Virus record (IMG/VR): IMGVR_UViG_3300025832_000065
Location: 1 to 24,171 of that record
DNA: 24,171 nucleotides
Strand: one strand, 5' to 3'
From: a virus
In this document: one piece after another, positions 1,107 to 24,171 of the stretch
Layout of the letters: each line of letters starts with the position of its first letter
Position numbering within the stretch: position 1 is the stretch's first letter
Position numbers and translations under genes: made by a program
The notes under the pieces: generated by a model
Told to the model about the DNA's origin: nothing
The model's input: only the letters and a program-made list of their open reading frames with translations
Database searches by the model: none

Positions 1107-3686
1107 TTAACTAAAGCAGAATTGACTGTCCCTTATTAGCTGTAGGTTTAGGTTTCCCATTTCGGGCATTGGATTGACTTCAGACCTCTCAAAGTCGAAC
1201 GGATGATCCAGCTGTTGCCTCAGTTCCTCTTGCCACTTTAGCAACAGGTTCTCAGCATCATACATCTCAATGTGGGCTTCACGGACACCGTAGTAGAGGT
1301 CGTCTACATCGCCAGAGATTGCAAAGCTATCGTGGATCATAAAGAAGTCATTAGTCGCTCCAGCGTCTAGCAGTTTGACTATAGTTTTAGCCATGCCAGA
1401 GGCGTCAAGCGAGTGTATGAGGTTAGCCGCTACAGATGCTGTGTTCTTCCTGACATCCACCTTACCTGTATCTAGCGATAAGGAGACCTTAGACCTAGTT
1501 CTCTCGCCTACAGCTGTATCAAACAAGAATATCTTAGTCTCTACCCTGTCCCTCTTTAGATAGTTATGGAAGACCCTAAACCCACTAGGCGAAGTCCAGT
1601 TGACCAGCTTGTTTTGCTTGCTGATAACATTGGTGCACGACTGTATCCACTTCATAGCTTCAGCCGCTTTAGGCAAGGTCTCCACAATGCTGTCGTAGCT
1701 GTGACCAGCAAGGTAACGTGACGCAACCTTTCGCTCTTTATTTGTCCTAGCAATCGGGTGTTCCTTTAGTTCACCATAAGACACAGATCGTTGCAAAGGC
1801 TTCATAACGTCTTCCATGTATTGACCAGTCATTCCAGCGACAACCGATGAATATGGGTAGGTCATGCAAGCCCTCTTCTGATTTCCTCTGGTAATACCAA
1901 AGTCTAGCCAAATACGCGCCAGTTCAGCCTTGGTGATCTCATTGCTACCAAAGGCACTAGGGTCGTCTAAATCAACAACAAGCCTTTGTGTAACTTTGTC
2001 AGCAACAGTTTGGTAAAGGTCAGCCATTGTGTCTTGTGGAACTAAGTTTACCAAAGCACCCTCTTCACTACGTGTCAAAAGACTGTAATGCTGAACACCA
2101 CTATTAGTCCCATCAAGTGAAATTGGTATAAAGCCAACAAAATCATCACCTTCATCAAGGTATCTGGAATACTCAAAGATAGCCGCGAGCATTTGAAAAG
2201 GAGAATCCGCACCTGACCATTGACCCAGACTGTTCTTGTAGTCTTTAGCCATGTCCAAGAGTACACCCTCATTCTTGTCAAACCATGCCACACGTCCATC
2301 AAGAGGTGCTTTGTCGATCTTCTCAAAGCCAGAGCAATTAGCAATGTGTATCTTTAGCCATCTAATGTTTTGCCCATCGACAACACGGCCTCTCTGAAAC
2401 TGAAAGAGTGACTTAATGTGGTCGTCTCTGTGGTAGTTGAAAGACGGAACCATGTTGAAGCGGCCTCTGAAATCACATGCCCATGGGATCGTAAAGTAAT
2501 CATGGACTGCAAGTTCATTAGCAATCTGAAGGTCTTGCTTCATGACAGCTTCAGCACCCTTTACCCTGCGGTCAGTGTTTCGCCATTCACGCTGGTCTTC
2601 TTTAATGGCTTTCTTCAGCTCCTGATCCATTGTCATGTGATCCTCTGGAAGCCTCGGAAACTCAGGTTTATCTCGCTTTGGAAACTTACCGAATGACTGT
2701 CTGGTCTCCCAGCACCACTCGACAACTTCAAGCATTTCCTCGTTGATACACAGCCTCGTTTCTTGCAGTGCATTGAGTGCTCTAAAGTGTTCTGGAGTTT
2801 CACCCTTGAAACTGTGTTCTATGGCCTCAATCTGCTTGCTGGAAGCCCCTCTAACGAGTTTGACAACCTCTGCTAGTCTCCAGTCCTTATAAGCCCCTGT
2901 ATGGAAGCCCTGCCAAGGGTTCGGTGTGTCCATTGGTATAGGCTTTAGAAGCGGTTGTGACCATTGGAGATACTCTTTGCTTCTCTCAATTTCGCGCTGG
3001 GCTTCCTGAGTAAAAGACAAACGAGTGATACTGTTTTTTGGAGTGGTGTACTGAGTGTCCTTTTGGAAGACATGACAATACTGAAAGATTGCTGAGATGA
3101 CTGGAGCGGCGTTGGCTGTCTTCCGCTTCATGTGCATCTTGCGATCACCCTTTTTCTCTTCGATGCCAAAGTATATAGACTTGGTGCCATTCTTAGACGC
3201 TATGTTCCTGAGAGCCTTCAGCCTGACATGTGCTGACGTGTGGGCTTCAGACACCATCTTTACTATTTGTCTGTTGTTCCTGTTGGCTTCCTCATCATCG
3301 CTATGAAGCAACTCCAACGCTAAACATTCACGATCTATAAGACTGCCTATTTCTTGAGTTACACTACTGAGCGTACTGTCTTTCAAGACTGCATTGTAGC
3401 AACTCTGGAGACCAATGAGTGCCAGCTGTCTAGGGTCAAGGTGCATAAGGTCGTTTAGCCACGTTGGGCGGCGTCCTTTGCCTCTTCTGGCTTCCTCGAT
3501 GTCTTTGGATAAACCATCAGCCACTAAGTCTAAGACTTGCTTTAGTTGGCTATATTCTGGTGCTTGCTCTGTTACGTTTTCTGCCTGTTGATACTTCTCG
3601 TTAAACTTACGTTTGCCATCTTGTTTCATGGTCTCGTTGTAGGCTTCTGAGATAGGGTTTGCCTGTGTGTTGCTATCGTTGCTCAT
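1107..3686 (-). CDS. T7-like single-subunit DNA-directed RNA polymerase
   Basis: The 859-residue protein is close to the T7 enzyme in length (883 aa). It should transcribe phage promoters. All core motifs are visible: DFRGR at 405-409; motif A, FIPISLDGTNSG, with catalytic D525 (T7 D537); motif B, KRACMTYPY, with K604 (T7 K631) and Y612 (T7 Y639), the ribose-discriminating tyrosine; and motif C, MIHDSF, with H785 and D786 (T7 H811 and D812). Segment 698-745 corresponds to the promoter-specificity loop region. The C-terminus ends SQFCFS, echoing the FAFA foot of T7 RNA polymerase. A GGGGGAG Shine-Dalgarno precedes the ATG, and the start overlaps the preceding 58-codon gene (ATGA). Neighbours are integrase upstream and the ssDNA-binding gene downstream. 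Its likely cognate promoters are the SP6-like elements at 7414 and 7606. Confidence 0.97.
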   Translation of the reverse strand: MSNDSNTQANPISEAYNETMKQDGKRKFNEKYQQAENVTEQAPEYSQLKQVLDLVADGLSKDIEEARRGKGRRPTWLNDLMHLDPRQLALIGLQSCYNAVLKDSTLSSVTQEIGSLIDRECLALELLHSDDEEANRNNRQIVKMVSEAHTSAHVRLKALRNIASKNGTKSIYFGIEEKKGDRKMHMKRKTANAAPVISAIFQYCHVFQKDTQYTTPKNSITRLSFTQEAQREIERSKEYLQWSQPLLKPIPMDTPNPWQGFHTGAYKDWRLAEVVKLVRGASSKQIEAIEHSFKGETPEHFRALNALQETRLCINEEMLEVVEWCWETRQSFGKFPKRDKPEFPRLPEDHMTMDQELKKAIKEDQREWRNTDRRVKGAEAVMKQDLQIANELAVHDYFTIPWACDFRGRFNMVPSFNYHRDDHIKSLFQFQRGRVVDGQNIRWLKIHIANCSGFEKIDKAPLDGRVAWFDKNEGVLLDMAKDYKNSLGQWSGADSPFQMLAAIFEYSRYLDEGDDFVGFIPISLDGTNSGVQHYSLLTRSEEGALVNLVPQDTMADLYQTVADKVTQRLVVDLDDPSAFGSNEITKAELARIWLDFGITRGNQKRACMTYPYSSVVAGMTGQYMEDVMKPLQRSVSYGELKEHPIARTNKERKVASRYLAGHSYDSIVETLPKAAEAMKWIQSCTNVISKQNKLVNWTSPSGFRVFHNYLKRDRVETKIFLFDTAVGERTRSKVSLSLDTGKVDVRKNTASVAANLIHSLDASGMAKTIVKLLDAGATNDFFMIHDSFAISGDVDDLYYGVREAHIEMYDAENLLLKWQEELRQQLDHPFDFERSEVNPMPEMGNLNLQLIRDSQFCFS

Positions 3687-3877: not shown

Positions 3878-4771
3878 TTAAATTTCCAGTCCAAACAGGT
3901 CAGTCTGCTTGGCTTGTAGTGGTGTAATAGTTTTGCTTCTCTCTCCTCTCATTAGTTCTGCCATAGACCTCAAGGTCTCTGGTGCAGTCTTGATGTATTT
4001 ACGGGTCGTGTTTAGGTCTCGGTGTCCTAAAAACTTTCCGATGATGTCCGTGTTATAAGCCCCACTGTTAGCCAGCGTGGTTGCACAGGTATGTCTAGTC
4101 GTATGAAACGTGTAACGGCTGTCATCATTAAGCACTGCCCTTCTCATGTGCTTCCACCCCCGATAAAACAACTTGCTGTTCCAGTTCTTTGAAACATCAG
4201 TTCCTAGTTTCCTAATGGCTCTTAGGGCTTCGTCATTGATAGGCACAGTACGACTATCGCCGTTTTTAGTGTCAGCTAAATAAACTGAGTAACCGCCAGT
4301 TTCATCAATAACTAATGTGCTTTCGTTTATGCTTCTGATCTCCCCTATTCGCATCCCAGTGTGAATGCCAATAATCAAGTAGAACTCTAAGTCTCTGAAG
4401 TCAGCACTGTTTCGAAAGTAGGACGACATTAAATCTATTTGAGACTTTGTAAAGTACAATGGTCTTTTGTTGCCTTTGACCTTGCGATACTTGAACTTGG
4501 GTACATGGCTAATGTGCTCTTCAGAGACTGCATGAGAGAACACCTTAACTATCATAGCCCCATAGTGATTTATTGTATTATTGGACAACCCCTGCTCCGC
4601 AAGACTGTCAAAGAAGCGGTGTATATGGCTAGGCTTAAAGTCGCTTATGGCTCTAGTGTCATAATCAGAGAAAGAGGAAAATCGCTCGGCTTTGGTGATG
4701 CTTCGGGCTCGGTGGGCTTCCCCGTCCCAGATTAGCTTTGCGTCCATGTGGACTAACTCAAGAAAGGTCAT
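3878..4771 (-). CDS. Tyrosine-family site-specific recombinase (integrase)
   Basis: The 297-residue protein has a SAM-like core-binding domain (about 1-95) and a C-terminal catalytic domain. The active-site set is complete: R141 in TGMRIGEI, K169 in LADTKNGD, H223 and R226 in HTTRHTC, H250 in LGHRD and the nucleophile Y259 in RKYIK. It is shorter than lambda integrase and appears to lack a separate arm-binding N-terminal domain. It should recombine phage attP with a bacterial attB, forming a transient 3'-phosphotyrosine link. The ATG is preceded by GGGAGAAAGTCC, and the start overlaps the upstream gene by 14 nt. Its position just upstream of the RNA polymerase gene matches integrase-bearing T7-like marine phages. 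No excisionase or clear repressor is recognisable nearby. Confidence 0.95.
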   Translation of the reverse strand: MTFLELVHMDAKLIWDGEAHRARSITKAERFSSFSDYDTRAISDFKPSHIHRFFDSLAEQGLSNNTINHYGAMIVKVFSHAVSEEHISHVPKFKYRKVKGNKRPLYFTKSQIDLMSSYFRNSADFRDLEFYLIIGIHTGMRIGEIRSINESTLVIDETGGYSVYLADTKNGDSRTVPINDEALRAIRKLGTDVSKNWNSKLFYRGWKHMRRAVLNDDSRYTFHTTRHTCATTLANSGAYNTDIIGKFLGHRDLNTTRKYIKTAPETLRSMAELMRGERSKTITPLQAKQTDLFGLEI

Positions 4772-19115: not shown

Positions 19116-21149
19116 ATGAAATCAAATAAAGATTATAAAAAACTCGACGACGATCAAATCGTGTCCATAGTAGATACTAACCTAAGACGCTCCATTGGAT
19201 ACTACGACAGTGAGTTGTCAAAAGAACGCCGTAAGGTAATGGATTACTACAGTGCTAAACTCCCTCGCCCAGCGCATGATGGAAACAGTAAGTATGTAAG
19301 TCAGGACGTTTACGATGCTGTAGAAAGCATGAAGGCGGCTTTGTTAGAAACATTCAGCACAGGCAATAAGTCACTTAGGTTCTCACCACAGAACGCTGAT
19401 GATGTCCCAACAGCTGAAGTCTGCACAGAGTACACCGACTATGTTCTACATCGTCAAAACAACCTGTTTGAAACTATGCAGACTGTTATTCACGATGGTC
19501 TTATTGCTCGTGCTGGTATCGCTAAAGTTTACTGGTGTATGCAAGACGAAAGCACACTGGAGTACGTTGAAGGGCTTACAGAGGAAGAACTGGACGTACT
19601 ACTAGCTGAAGAAAATGTAGAGATCGAAGAGATAACTGAAGACGAGTTTGGTATGTTCTCTGGTGAGCTACGTGTAACCCGTGACACATCACAGGTAAAA
19701 GTAGAAGCTATTGCACCAGAAGAGTTCTTGATTGAACCCCAAGCAAAGTCATTAGATGACGTTAGTTTCTGTGCACACCGCACTAAGAAGTCTATATCTG
19801 AACTTATTGAAATGGGCTACGATGAAGACCTTGTAGCAAAAATAGGTGACAATGAAGATACTGACTTTGACAATGATCCAGAGATACTATCTCGACATGA
19901 CGATATTGGTGCTGACAGAGGCTTCAACTCCAAAGGCGACCAAAGACAGACACGCCAGATAACAATAGTCGAAGCATTCATAATGCTAGATGTAGAGGCA
20001 ACTGGTGTCGCTGAATTACACAGGGTTGTTAAGGCATCTAATGTTTTACTAGAGAAAGAAATAGTAAACAGACGACCATTCGTAGCATTCGTACCACTGC
20101 CTATCCCACATGCTTTCCACGGTAATAACTTTGCCGAGAAACTATTAGGCATACAGAATGCACGTACAGTCTTAACTCGATCCATTCTTGATCACGCTAT
20201 GGTTACTAACAACCCACGATATACTGTGGTTAAAGGTGGCCTAACGAACCCAAGAGAACTAATAGACAATCGTGTCGGTGGTATCGTGAATATATCACGC
20301 CCTGACGCAATTGCCCCTATGCCTCAAGCATCTTTGAACCCGTTTGTATTCCAAACTATTCAGATGTTAGATGAGGATAAAGAAGATACCTCTGGTGTCT
20401 CTCGCCTATCTCAAGGTCTTAATAAAGACGCTATAAGCAAACAAAACTCAGCGGCAATGGTCGAGCAATTGGCAACAATGAGCCAACAGCGACAGAAGAT
20501 CATCGCGCGTAACTTTGCGAACAACTTCCTAAAGCCTCTATTCTCTATGGTCTATTCACTAGTCGTCGAGAACGAGTCTGAGGAGAAGATTGTTGAGTTA
20601 GCTGGACGTTATGTCCCTGTCAACCCTTCGCAATGGGCTGATAAACGTGACGTACAAGTTGAGTTCCACTTGGGCTATGGTGATCAGGAGCAACTGGTGC
20701 AAAAGCACCTTTCGTTCCACCAACTATTATCTGCCGATCCTACTCTTGGACAAATGTACTCTCCTGAGAACAAGTTCAAGATGTTAGCATCAATATTAGA
20801 TAAATCAGGTATCAAGAATGTTGCTGACTTCCTAACAGACCCAGCGTCGATACCTCCACCGCCACCTGATCCAAATGCAGAGATGCAGATGCAGATGGCA
20901 CAGCAACAAATGCAACTTCAAGAACGACAAACTGCTGTCGCTGAGATGAAGGTGCAAGTTGATGCACAAATGCGTCAAATGAAACTTGAGCTAGACACTA
21001 TGAAGGCTCAACAAGCATTTGCCCTACAATCTGACAAGCAAGACCTCAACGAGACTGAGTTTGAACACAAAGAGTTCGTGAACTTAGAGGAACTAGAGAT
21101 CGCAAGAACTGCTGATGATGTCAGAGCAATCGCAAGTCCTAACGGATAA
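19116..21149 (+). CDS. Portal protein, SU10/P22-like
   Basis: This 677-residue portal begins with a helical stretch (RKVMDYYSAKLPRPAHDGNS, SKYVSQDVYDAVESMKAALLETF) characteristic of podovirus portals of the SU10/P22 group rather than the shorter T7 gp8 type. The centre has a beta-rich clip/stem region (about 185-300). A conserved helical crown and wing follow, including IISRP-type and LNKDAISKQNSAAMVEQL segments near 420-450. Residues 585-645 form a Gln/Met-rich coiled coil (QMQMAQQQMQLQERQTAVAE), compatible with a barrel inside the capsid. It forms the dodecameric channel for DNA packaging and ejection. It starts two bases after the terminase stop. Confidence 0.9.
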   Translation: MKSNKDYKKLDDDQIVSIVDTNLRRSIGYYDSELSKERRKVMDYYSAKLPRPAHDGNSKYVSQDVYDAVESMKAALLETFSTGNKSLRFSPQNADDVPTAEVCTEYTDYVLHRQNNLFETMQTVIHDGLIARAGIAKVYWCMQDESTLEYVEGLTEEELDVLLAEENVEIEEITEDEFGMFSGELRVTRDTSQVKVEAIAPEEFLIEPQAKSLDDVSFCAHRTKKSISELIEMGYDEDLVAKIGDNEDTDFDNDPEILSRHDDIGADRGFNSKGDQRQTRQITIVEAFIMLDVEATGVAELHRVVKASNVLLEKEIVNRRPFVAFVPLPIPHAFHGNNFAEKLLGIQNARTVLTRSILDHAMVTNNPRYTVVKGGLTNPRELIDNRVGGIVNISRPDAIAPMPQASLNPFVFQTIQMLDEDKEDTSGVSRLSQGLNKDAISKQNSAAMVEQLATMSQQRQKIIARNFANNFLKPLFSMVYSLVVENESEEKIVELAGRYVPVNPSQWADKRDVQVEFHLGYGDQEQLVQKHLSFHQLLSADPTLGQMYSPENKFKMLASILDKSGIKNVADFLTDPASIPPPPPDPNAEMQMQMAQQQMQLQERQTAVAEMKVQVDAQMRQMKLELDTMKAQQAFALQSDKQDLNETEFEHKEFVNLEELEIARTADDVRAIASPNG

Positions 21150-21177
21150 GCAACCTTAACCAAAAAGAGAGAACTAC

Positions 21178-21456
21178 ATGTCTACACAAGAAGAGCAACT
21201 TGTGATGGCTGGTGATGAAGCTGGAGCCATACTTAATGGTTCCGCCTTCAACTCAGTTATCAATGAACTTGTCGAAAGAACCTTCCAAACATTTGTAAAC
21301 ACTGAGCCTTCCGACAAGGACAAAAGAGAACATGCCTACAACCACTATCGAGCATTAGTTGACGTGGTTGATACTTTAAAACAGCGAGTTCAAGTGCGTG
21401 ACAGCATTGTAGAACAGCAGAACGGCGACAACAGCCAAGAGGAGACTGCTCCATGA
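21178..21456 (+). CDS. Small head-module protein (92 aa) between portal and scaffold
   Basis: The protein has a helical core (FNSVINELVERTFQTFVNTEP, then HAYNHYRALVDVVDTLKQRV) and an acidic Gln/Glu-rich tail. Small acidic helical proteins often stand between portal and scaffold genes in marine podophages, and this one fits that slot. AGAGAG precedes the ATG. Its TGA overlaps the scaffold start (ATGA), so the two are probably made in proportion. It may assist prohead assembly. No enzymatic motif is visible and I cannot give it a name. Confidence 0.7.
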   Translation: MSTQEEQLVMAGDEAGAILNGSAFNSVINELVERTFQTFVNTEPSDKDKREHAYNHYRALVDVVDTLKQRVQVRDSIVEQQNGDNSQEETAP

Positions 21457-22505
21457 ATGACAACGAGCAAAATGTAAACTCTGAGCCAAAAGCATTAGAT
21501 ATTGATGATGCGGCAGAAGCAATCTTAGGACGATGGGATGACGGGGAAACCTTATCTGAAGTCGATGAAGATGCAACATCCGAAGACCTAGAAGAGACAG
21601 AGGTAACTGAAGATGAACTAGACGATGAAGAGGACGATGAAGGCGAAGATAACCTTGATGACCCCGAAACAGATGAACTAGACGACGATGACGAAACTGA
21701 TGAAGATGAAGACGCAGAAGAGGATGACGACGAACCTCTAGCCGCTTCAGACGATCAGGTTGTAGACATCTCAGTCAATGGTGAGTCTAAGAAGGTATCT
21801 GTAAAGGATTTGAAACGGCTCTATGGTCAAGAAGCATCTCTAACCAAAAAGTCTCAAGATTTGGCTAACCAGCGCAAACAGTCAGAAGAACAACTGGCAC
21901 AAACGCATATGTCATATCAAAAGTTAATGGAACGCGCAGAAGCTAGGTATAAACCTTATGCTGACATAGACATGTTAGTAGCGTCACGCGAGATGGATGC
22001 AGAAACATTCTCTCAACTACGCCAAGATGCGAAGCAAGCAGAAGACGACCTAAAATTCCTACAGGAAGAAAGTGGTCAGCTTGTATCCCAAGCACAGCAA
22101 AACCATCAGCAAGCAACTAAAGAGGCCGCCGCAGATTGCGTAAAGGTTCTACAGGAGCAACTGCCTGACTGGGGTAACGAACTGTATACTAATATACGTG
22201 AGTACGCTGTTGCATCAGGATTACCCAAAGACCAAGTAGATCAGTACACTGACCCACAAGTCATCATGCTGATAAACAAAGCACGACTCTATGATCAATC
22301 AAAACAGTCCGCCAAAAGCAAAAAAGCCAAGGCCAAACTTACGAAATCAAAAAGCGGTAAGACTAAGGTTTTAAGTTCCAAGAAAGCACCACCATCTAAA
22401 AAGTCTATCCAGAAAGCTAATCAACAGAAGCAAATGGATATGCTCAGTGGTGCTAAAGACCTTGATGATATTGCAGAGGCATTAATGAGCCGCTGGGAAG
22501 AGTAA
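21453..22505 (+). CDS. Capsid scaffolding protein with matching motifs at both ends
   Basis: This 350-residue protein has an acidic region at about 30-95 dominated by Asp and Glu. A short beta-type segment follows (VVDISVNGESKKVSVKDLKRLY), then a long coiled coil at about 125-215 and a Lys/Ser/Ala-rich basic region at 285-325. The C-terminal helix is DLDDIAEALMSRWEE (336-350). Such charge segregation with a terminal helical clamp is typical of podovirus scaffolds, which bind the capsid protein and leave or are degraded before DNA entry. Residues 16-30, DIDDAAEAILGRWDD, closely match the C-terminal motif, so the protein may have two equivalent binding elements. It is coupled to the previous gene by ATGA and precedes the capsid gene by 45 nt. 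Confidence 0.85.
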   Translation: MNDNEQNVNSEPKALDIDDAAEAILGRWDDGETLSEVDEDATSEDLEETEVTEDELDDEEDDEGEDNLDDPETDELDDDDETDEDEDAEEDDDEPLAASDDQVVDISVNGESKKVSVKDLKRLYGQEASLTKKSQDLANQRKQSEEQLAQTHMSYQKLMERAEARYKPYADIDMLVASREMDAETFSQLRQDAKQAEDDLKFLQEESGQLVSQAQQNHQQATKEAAADCVKVLQEQLPDWGNELYTNIREYAVASGLPKDQVDQYTDPQVIMLINKARLYDQSKQSAKSKKAKAKLTKSKSGKTKVLSSKKAPPSKKSIQKANQQKQMDMLSGAKDLDDIAEALMSRWEE

Positions 22506-22550
22506 ATCTTCTTAAACTTAATCCTAAAATTGTAATAAGGAAATTACATT

Positions 22551-23435
22551 ATGGCAACATATACAACCTATACCCAAGTGGGTCAGAAAGAAGATGTTTC
22601 AGACATCATCGCTAACATTAGTCCGTTTAGCACTCCATGTTTAGCAATGTTCAAAGACGAAAAAGTATCAGCTAGAACTTTCTCATTCCTTGAGGATTCA
22701 TTAGCAGATTCAGCAGTCAATGCGGCAGTTGAAGGAGCAGACGCAAGTATGCTAACTTTGACAGATGCAACTGAGAGAACACAGAATACTCAGATACTTT
22801 CTAAAGCCTTCCAAGTAAGTGCAACAGCAGATGCCGTGGCAACTTATGGTCGAGCAAAGGAAACTGCTTATCAGTTAGCTAAGAAACTTAAAGAAATCAA
22901 AAAAGACTACGAACGTGCAATGGTTGGCGTTGAGCAAGCCGCAGTTGCTGGTAATGCTTCAACAGCACGTAAGATGACTTCTATCATTAACCAAATGTCT
23001 ACAGCTGTAGACGCTGGTTCAAACGCAACAGATGCCTTAACAGAAGCAAAACTATTGTTAGCTGGTCAAACAGCATACGACAATGGTTCTGATGTTGACA
23101 CATTCATGATCAAGCCAGCAGACGCACAAATCGTAGCTGGTTTCTCAGCGGCATCTGGTCGTAATCGTGAAATCTCACAAGGCAAAACATTGGTCAATGC
23201 GATTGATCTATATGTGAGCCCTTACGGCGAATACAGAGTAGTATTGAACCGCGAGTTAAAGACAACTCACGCACTACTAATAGACCCAACAATGTTCAAA
23301 ACATGTACGTTGCGTCCATTCACAAGAACACTTCTAGCGAAAAATGGCGACTCAGATCGACATCATATCGTGGGCGAGGTTTCTTGCAAACATACCAACT
23401 TTGCTGACTCTGTGAAGATCACAGGCTTATCATAA
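22551..23435 (+). CDS. Major capsid protein, HK97-fold, SU10-like
   Basis: The 294-residue protein starts MATYTTYTQVGQKEDVSDII. It then carries SPFSTPCLAMFKDEKVSARTFSFLEDSL, a pattern typical of the SU10-type major capsid family (formerly DUF5309), not the T7 gp10 type. A helix-rich region follows (AKKLKEIKKDYERAMVGVEQA, the HK97 spine helix), then the A-domain strands and a C-terminal beta segment. It assembles the icosahedral head on the scaffold. AAGGAA nine bases before the ATG, a dedicated 45-nt spacer and a strong terminator after the gene are consistent with high expression. Family assignment comes from motif reading plus the portal-scaffold-capsid order. Confidence 0.9.
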   Translation: MATYTTYTQVGQKEDVSDIIANISPFSTPCLAMFKDEKVSARTFSFLEDSLADSAVNAAVEGADASMLTLTDATERTQNTQILSKAFQVSATADAVATYGRAKETAYQLAKKLKEIKKDYERAMVGVEQAAVAGNASTARKMTSIINQMSTAVDAGSNATDALTEAKLLLAGQTAYDNGSDVDTFMIKPADAQIVAGFSAASGRNREISQGKTLVNAIDLYVSPYGEYRVVLNRELKTTHALLIDPTMFKTCTLRPFTRTLLAKNGDSDRHHIVGEVSCKHTNFADSVKITGLS

Positions 23436-23466
23436 GTTTCTAATAGACCACTAATAGGTCTTTACT

Positions 23467-23526
23467 AGGCCACCCACAGACACACAGGTTTTGCTCTCCT
23501 TACTGTTGTCCGTGGGTGGCCTTTTT
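23467..23526 (+). terminator. Strong Rho-independent terminator after the capsid gene
   Basis: Arms AGGCCACCCAC (23467-23477) and GTGGGTGGCCT (23512-23522) pair perfectly over 11 bp. They extend by a further 4 bp (GACA/TGTC) after one mismatch, around a 24-nt loop, and TTTTT follows. A smaller hairpin, AGACC/GGTCT (23445-23461), precedes it. Confidence 0.88.
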
Positions 23527-23545
23527 ACGTTTTAAGGGTAGCAAA

Positions 23546-23851
23546 ATGACTAACAAAACACAGCCAACATTATTACAAAATGAAACTGACTTTATGCAAG
23601 AGCATGGTCAATTATTACAAAAGCATACACAGCACATCTCACAGTCATTCTTAGATGATCTGAAAGACGCTCGAAACAATAGTTCGAAGCCTACAGGTGA
23701 GATGATGAGAGTAGCCTCCATACCGACAGCCGTTGTCGAGAAGTGGATGCGAGAAGGATTCAATATCTGGGAAGCCAAAGGTTCAGAGATTGTCCGTAAA
23801 CTAAAGAACGAGGACTTAGACATGTTCCTTACAACCAATAAGAGGATTTAA
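23546..23851 (+). CDS. Small protein between capsid and adaptor (101 aa)
   Basis: I chose ATG 23546 because an upstream in-frame GTG would lie within the terminator stem, and AAGGGTAGC precedes the ATG. Residues 1-45 are polar and helical (NETDFMQEHGQLLQKHTQHIS). The C-terminal half (GEMMRVASIPTAVVEKWMREGFN) has a compact conserved-looking helix-turn pattern and ends FLTTNKRI. Genes of this size sit between capsid and adaptor genes in related marine podophages. A head-completion or decoration role is possible but unproven. Confidence 0.7.
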   Translation: MTNKTQPTLLQNETDFMQEHGQLLQKHTQHISQSFLDDLKDARNNSSKPTGEMMRVASIPTAVVEKWMREGFNIWEAKGSEIVRKLKNEDLDMFLTTNKRI

Positions 23852-23852
23852 A

Positions 23853-24171
23853 ATGAACAAAGGTGAAATCCGAGCACACTTTATTGCTCTTCTAAATCGT
23901 AGTGACTGTTCGAATGCTTTGGCTGACACCTTCATTGATCAAGCAATCACTAGAATACAGAGACAACTACGTGTCCCAGCAATGGAAAAACAAAACGATT
24001 ACAATGTAGCATCAGATGCAGGGACTTCAAAAGTAACAATGCCAGCTGATCTACTTGAGATAATCGAGTTGTATTACGATGGTAACGCATTAGTCCGCAT
24101 CCCTCTACATGAGATGGTACAGTATCAAAAGACAGGTGAATTAGGTTCACCAAGGTTCTTCTGCCGAGAGC
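23853..24171 (+). CDS. Head-tail adaptor protein, 5' part only
   Basis: The frame is open to the window edge, 106 complete codons without a stop, so the gene is truncated by the window, not broken. It starts MNKGEIRAHFIALLNRSDCS. TFIDQAITRIQRQLRVPAME follows, a helical pattern characteristic of the SU10-type adaptor (connector) proteins that dock under the portal. Then come beta-type segments (SKVTMPADLLEIIELYYDGN and LVRIPLHEMVQYQ). AGAGGA lies upstream of the ATG, and only one base separates the gene from the previous stop. It should bridge portal and tail nozzle. Its position after the capsid gene is as expected. Confidence 0.8.
   Translation, partial: MNKGEIRAHFIALLNRSDCSNALADTFIDQAITRIQRQLRVPAMEKQNDYNVASDAGTSKVTMPADLLEIIELYYDGNALVRIPLHEMVQYQKTGELGSPRFFCRE

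Follow-up and report, generated by a model that had tools for sequence, protein, structure and literature searches.

A head scaffolding protein encoded in the window, the whole 24,171-bp stretch of phage DNA that was analysed, carries two copies of one short motif, one near its N-terminus and one forming its C-terminus. Both copies exist, are conserved and change in concert across families. The preferred reading, to which we give a probability of roughly 0.5, is that the two copies are a single lineage-specific capsid-docking helix used twice, through which one scaffold chain bridges two capsid subunits; here we infer the capsid protein as the receptor, one site for both copies, and the bridging itself. 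The C-terminal copy would be the second helix of a helix-turn-helix hook and the N-terminal copy a lone helix on a disordered, strongly acidic tail of ~95 residues, both docking in grooves of one kind on the inside of the major capsid protein (MCP), by analogy in the N-arm/P-domain region. One scaffold molecule would hold two capsid subunits at a spacing set by its long core helices, and these weak, repeated and reversible contacts would help capsomers to gather, then let go upon DNA entry and scaffold exit.

It has long been asked how scaffolds gauge capsomer spacing and curvature, and the answer is hard to obtain since scaffolds are flexible and mostly invisible in procapsid maps. Two interchangeable docking helices would offer a simple and testable rule, with two contacts per chain and a core that sets the spacing, and this rule predicts which 15-residue peptides bind, compete and swap. 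Slightly more tentative than the reading for the window itself is its extension to the large SU10/LUZ24-like group, where a chain with two such helices, alike within a lineage and varying between lineages, might act as a covalent clamp between two capsid subunits. If so, a single chain would do the work for which other scaffolds are proposed to dimerise. As the motif differs by lineage, it could tell which scaffold fits which capsid.

Profile matches and gene order identify the product as a SU10/LUZ24-type head scaffold of the known family phrog_3927, which upholds the annotation given in an earlier note on this DNA (Table 1). The phrog_3927 match (8.2e-29) covers residues 1-339 of 350 and positions 1-333 of the 342 in the profile, and the gene is located directly between the genes of an SU10-type portal and an SU10-type MCP; the order portal, small ORF, scaffold, MCP is identical in named phages. 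The MCP was related by phmmer to the capsid of Pseudomonas phage Pa223 (PDB 9ny2, 3e-36) and to that of SU10 (7z45, 2e-28), and the relationship was also obtained with Foldseek. For the scaffold, no PDB sequence matched at E<=1 and no scaffold family in Pfam was hit, and homology to the scaffolds of P22, 80alpha or SPP1 was found in neither search. Matches of the scaffold core to EF-P were below the cut-off and were taken as spurious. A sister contig of 42,273 bp bears a scaffold identical to that of the 24,171-bp window record.

Table 1. Features of the window discussed in the text, with the introns located in relatives in the last row
Feature	Position	Strand	Basis or remarks
T7-type RNA polymerase	1107-3686	-	PF00940 6e-73
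Tyrosine integrase	3878-4771	-	PF00589 3e-20
Head module, SU10/LUZ24 type	19116-24171	+	
Portal protein, SU10 type	19116..21149	+	PF23899 4.9e-184; phrog_1216 7e-133
Small conserved ORF, 92 aa	21178..21456	+	Between portal and scaffold; weak phrog_12967
Head scaffolding protein, 350 aa	21453..22505	+	phrog_3927 8.2e-29; phrog_9013 2.5e-18; position between portal and MCP
Putative N-terminal docking motif, residues 16-30	21498..21542	+	DIDDAAEAILGRWDD; predicted lone helix 18-32
Acidic stretch, residues 31-98	21543..21746	+	Predicted disordered; least constrained part measured (pN/pS 0.48)
Helical core, residues ~103-293	21759..22331	+	AlphaFold2, pLDDT mostly 70-90; short beta hairpin, long helices 117-170 and 183-236, shorter helices
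Basic stretch, residues 286-322	22308..22418	+	Largely predicted disordered (pLDDT <50 at 289-314)
C-terminal hook, predicted	22398..22502	+	AlphaFold2, pLDDT ~50-66; helix 316-332, turn, helix 337-349 (the C-terminal motif)
Putative C-terminal docking motif, residues 336-350	22458..22502	+	DLDDIAEALMSRWEE; last 15 residues
Major capsid protein, SU10/LUZ24-type HK97 fold, proposed receptor	22551..23435	+	PF17236 7e-72
Group I intron in MCP gene of relatives	L341:3636-3860; L019:5752-5979; L034:4375-4635		RF00028

The open reading frame and the two motifs lie exactly where the earlier note had placed them, and the identity at 8 of 15 positions was verified. With a BLOSUM62 score of 56, the two segments are the best 15-mer pair in the protein. 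None of 1000 local shuffles (blocks of 25) matched this score between the first and last ~50 residues, while anywhere in the protein it was matched by 14 of 1000 (1.4%), because residues 31-98 are an acidic stretch of low complexity. The DNA of the two motifs agrees at 30 of 45 bases, and a regular-expression scan of the frames of the 42-kb sister contig found the motif nowhere but in the scaffold pair. The end pair is unusually clear in the window's clade, nearly identical and with an RW pair, and it is weaker in many relatives.

Conservation within this clade was followed in 63 distinct scaffolds, reduced to 19 after dropping those more than 85% identical. Mean identity was 0.50 for the N-terminal and 0.54 for the C-terminal motif. 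The core (151-285) had 0.53, the acidic stretch 0.33, and the segments just ahead of the N- and C-terminal motifs 0.42 and 0.27, respectively. The pN/pS values were 0.24, 0.25, 0.21 and 0.48 for N motif, C motif, core and acidic stretch, so both ends are under purifying selection and the acidic stretch much less so. The N-terminal motif, whose loss in homologues would have counted against the earlier proposal, is thus as conserved as the core. In the branch of L351, L352 and L353, the Trp is missing at both ends. The 68-residue acidic stretch just inside the N-terminal motif is acidic in most other families read as well, with poorly conserved sequence, and it may act by charge, for instance in the release of the scaffold on DNA entry.

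Scaffold genes were collected from viral contigs and named phages by their place upstream of a related MCP gene, and a single-protein scan of genome contigs gave three loci. Clustering at 50% identity yielded 41 clusters, 38 of which (from SU10/LUZ24/Venkman/CRP-7-like phages) were kept; the scaffolds of Mycobacterium, Propionibacterium and Sporosarcina phages (L140, L396, L397) were left out as not recognisably of the same family, a choice made after seeing the sequences. Each pair of families was scored by its best ungapped 11-mer match, with residues 3-48 taken from one member and the C-terminal 22 residues from the other. The choice of families, segment lengths and scoring was made during exploration, and the alternative lengths and controls are all given. 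Own N/C pairs scored 19.4 versus 14.6 (sd 0.72) for swapped pairs in the 38 families (z 6.7, p 5e-5, the lowest value that 20,000 permutations can give), and on these swapped-pair tests pure chance was rejected for the likeness of the two ends. Without the window's clade and L050, the scores were 17.1 and 14.2 (z 4.1, p 1e-4). The own-pair excess was unchanged with motif lengths of 8 and 14, and an earlier run with 31 families had given the same result.

Relatedness among the families makes these permutations look more certain than they are. Drawing a single member from each of 11 clades (35% core identity) gave a median p of 0.002; without the window's clade and L050, 8 clades were left and the median was 0.014, 77% of draws falling below 0.05. 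For five control regions of these proteins the p values were 0.59, 0.94, 0.06, 0.32 and 0.45, the nearest being the N-terminus against residues 111-132 (p 0.06); as internal regions show no own-pair excess, composition bias of a given phage was rejected as the cause. Recent duplication or gene conversion was also discarded. At amino-acid-identical sites of the two ends, N and C codons agreed in 185 of 356 cases within a gene versus 1513 of 3535 between genes, leaving little sign of sequence homogenisation.

In an independent check, with a profile made from the C-termini of all but the tested protein, the N-terminus outscored all internal windows in 19 of the 38 families; were the windows all equal, ~6 families would do so. 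Tested one by one with shuffling, 14 of 38 families reached significance (p<0.05); some lineages thus show a strong effect and others a weak one or none, and many families have generic end segments. The motif varies by lineage and is often alike at both ends, as in L050 (MDDIAASILVK at the N-terminus, VDDIAATLLVR at the C-terminus), MJing1 (LANASSAIERL, LRDAASVIERL), L348 (TSTDAAVEALL, GSTDDAVAALM), Vibrio SJSY21 (NDFDVFSSLDD, DSVDVFNALLD) and RHph_N3_2 (DEGVSAIENLL, DAAARAIEALL). A recognisable motif is conserved at both ends in relatives, with the exceptions of L228 and L229, which retain the N-terminal motif while the C-terminal one is not recognisable; these two are natural cases for whether one end suffices. 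That the two ends change in concert from family to family argues that both were shaped by the same kind of partner.

Structural models were obtained with AlphaFold2 from read-through chains of the window and of one Venkman-clade relative. In these chains the scaffold was joined to the MCP, which lies in the same frame, by a 16-residue linker with the stop codon TAA read as Gly; the tether is non-coding sequence, which is a caveat on the model. The N-terminal motif was modelled as a lone helix (18-32) within a low-confidence tail of 97 residues. A like layout was predicted for the relative, with an N-terminal helix at 18-29 and C-terminal helices at 315-329 and 332-342, and in both clades the terminal helix-turn-helix reached a pLDDT of only ~50-70. 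Over the motifs themselves, pLDDT was ~30-43 (N) and ~49-66 (C) in the window's tethered model, and ~42-55 and ~40-72 in that of the relative. Neither motif was confidently docked on the MCP in the two tethered runs, and at this low confidence docking is neither supported nor refuted by the models. The N-terminal copy is predicted without the first helix of the hook and may therefore not bind as the C-terminal copy does. Of the two options in the earlier note, divalent bridging of capsid subunits or separate capsid and portal contacts, divalency is the better supported, through the concerted change of the ends.

The same missing helix would allow the partner of the N-terminal copy to differ, and the main rival holds that the C-terminal hook grips the capsid protein while the portal is bound by the N-terminal copy, or vice versa, linking portal to shell and helping assembly to nucleate at one vertex. 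There is precedent in P22, where a cleft between the wing domains of the portal holds the scaffold's C-loop and portal-coat contacts are also mediated by hooks (PMC12005531). Two different receptors are not expected, however, to force matching changes at the ends in lineage after lineage, and this co-variation weakens the portal reading, which we regard as unlikely. Co-variation of the ends would also follow if the helices packed homotypically or shared an internal pocket. Both ends might then bind a shared site on the scaffold or each other, leading to self-closure, head-to-tail chains or a C-terminal hook that is masked until the MCP competes. Scaffold oligomers are common, SPP1 gp11 being a stable dimer (PMC6813328), but neither end reaches confident pLDDT in single-chain AlphaFold2 models that contain the whole scaffold, and such self-binding is judged a little less likely still than a portal contact.

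As a predicted lone helix borne by a long disordered tail, the N-terminal motif could also serve as a docking peptide for some other partner, such as an ejection protein, a host factor or the product of the small ORF that adjoins the scaffold gene in most relatives read. This is improbable, as it leaves unexplained why the N-terminal motif tracks the C-terminal one in sequence across families. The least probable account is coincidence, with generic amphipathic helices (acidic at the start, rich in Ala, hydrophobic towards the finish) at both ends and no common function. The generic end segments of many families, the 24 of 38 that miss p<0.05 alone and the 1.4% of shuffles matching anywhere in the protein all speak for it. 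Against it stand the own-pair match far above swapped pairs, the null internal controls, the absence of Trp from both ends in L351-353 and the purifying selection on both ends, and on the permutation tests coincidence already appears largely refuted.

In comparison with known scaffolds, the premise of the earlier note that scaffolds generally bind through one terminal element fits the C-terminus of P22 and 80alpha and the N-terminus of SPP1 and phi29 (PMC12005531, PMC5644958, PMC6813328). In P22, a C-terminal hook grips the inner face of the HK97-fold capsid protein (PMC12005531), and the window's scaffold may resemble gp8 in the helix-turn-helix predicted, at low confidence, at its extreme C-terminus. 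Arg293/Lys296 give the contact in P22 a mainly electrostatic character (PMC12005531), whereas the window's motif has an acidic start and a hydrophobic/aromatic end; a second, N-terminal copy in gp8 is not described in the literature searched. In 80alpha and SaPI1 CpmB, the last 16 residues, which include RIIK, attach to the capsid protein's inner face, and CpmB dimers straddle adjacent capsomers (PMC5644958). The short C-terminal helix, putatively a docking one in the window's scaffold, and the use of one motif in two places are shared, but there the reuse is between two proteins, and here it is within one protein that lacks RIIK. For SPP1, an N-terminal hook was proposed, together with gp11 dimers as double hooks between capsomers (PMC6813328). 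The likeness would be a terminal helical hook for the inner face of an HK97-fold capsid protein, with two hooks proposed to bridge capsomers; the difference is that gp11 gains two hooks by dimerising one-hook chains, whereas the window's scaffold has two putative docking segments in one chain. With two co-varying end motifs in one chain, the simplest reading is the double-hook trick of SPP1 and CpmB carried out within one polypeptide.

The closest relatives are the phrog_3927 and phrog_9013 scaffolds of the SU10, LUZ24, Kuravirus, Venkman and CRP-7 type, which are like that of the window by profile (8e-29 and 2.5e-18) and gene order, and in having an acidic N-terminal part, a helical core, a basic stretch and a short C-terminal helix; they differ in the RW end pair, clear in the window's clade and weaker in many of them. 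In the literature searched, which took in few subscription journals, scaffolds with paired end motifs were nowhere described. As judged from sequence, the family is known, and its two-ended design, undescribed in that literature, would be a variant of the known docking-hook scheme.

Most of the relatives read (including L130-L133, L135, L136, L138, L139 and L142) have an ORF of 71-90 aa that separates the portal gene from the scaffold gene. Several of the products have a KRE.xY-like patch (DKREHAYNHYRAL in the window, NKKREDCYQKYKMV in SU10), and the product could be a partner in head assembly.

The scaffold comes from a marine phage whose record combines the SU10/LUZ24-type head module with a T7-type RNA polymerase and a tyrosine integrase, which suggests a mosaic podovirus-like phage that is possibly temperate. 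No tRNA genes were found in the window. Its MCP gene is without insertion, and in several close relatives a group I intron (RF00028, 84-88 bits) interrupts the gene near codon 225; apart from those in Table 1, L007, L008, L009, L020, L036, L037, L342, L343 and L345 likely carry it as well.
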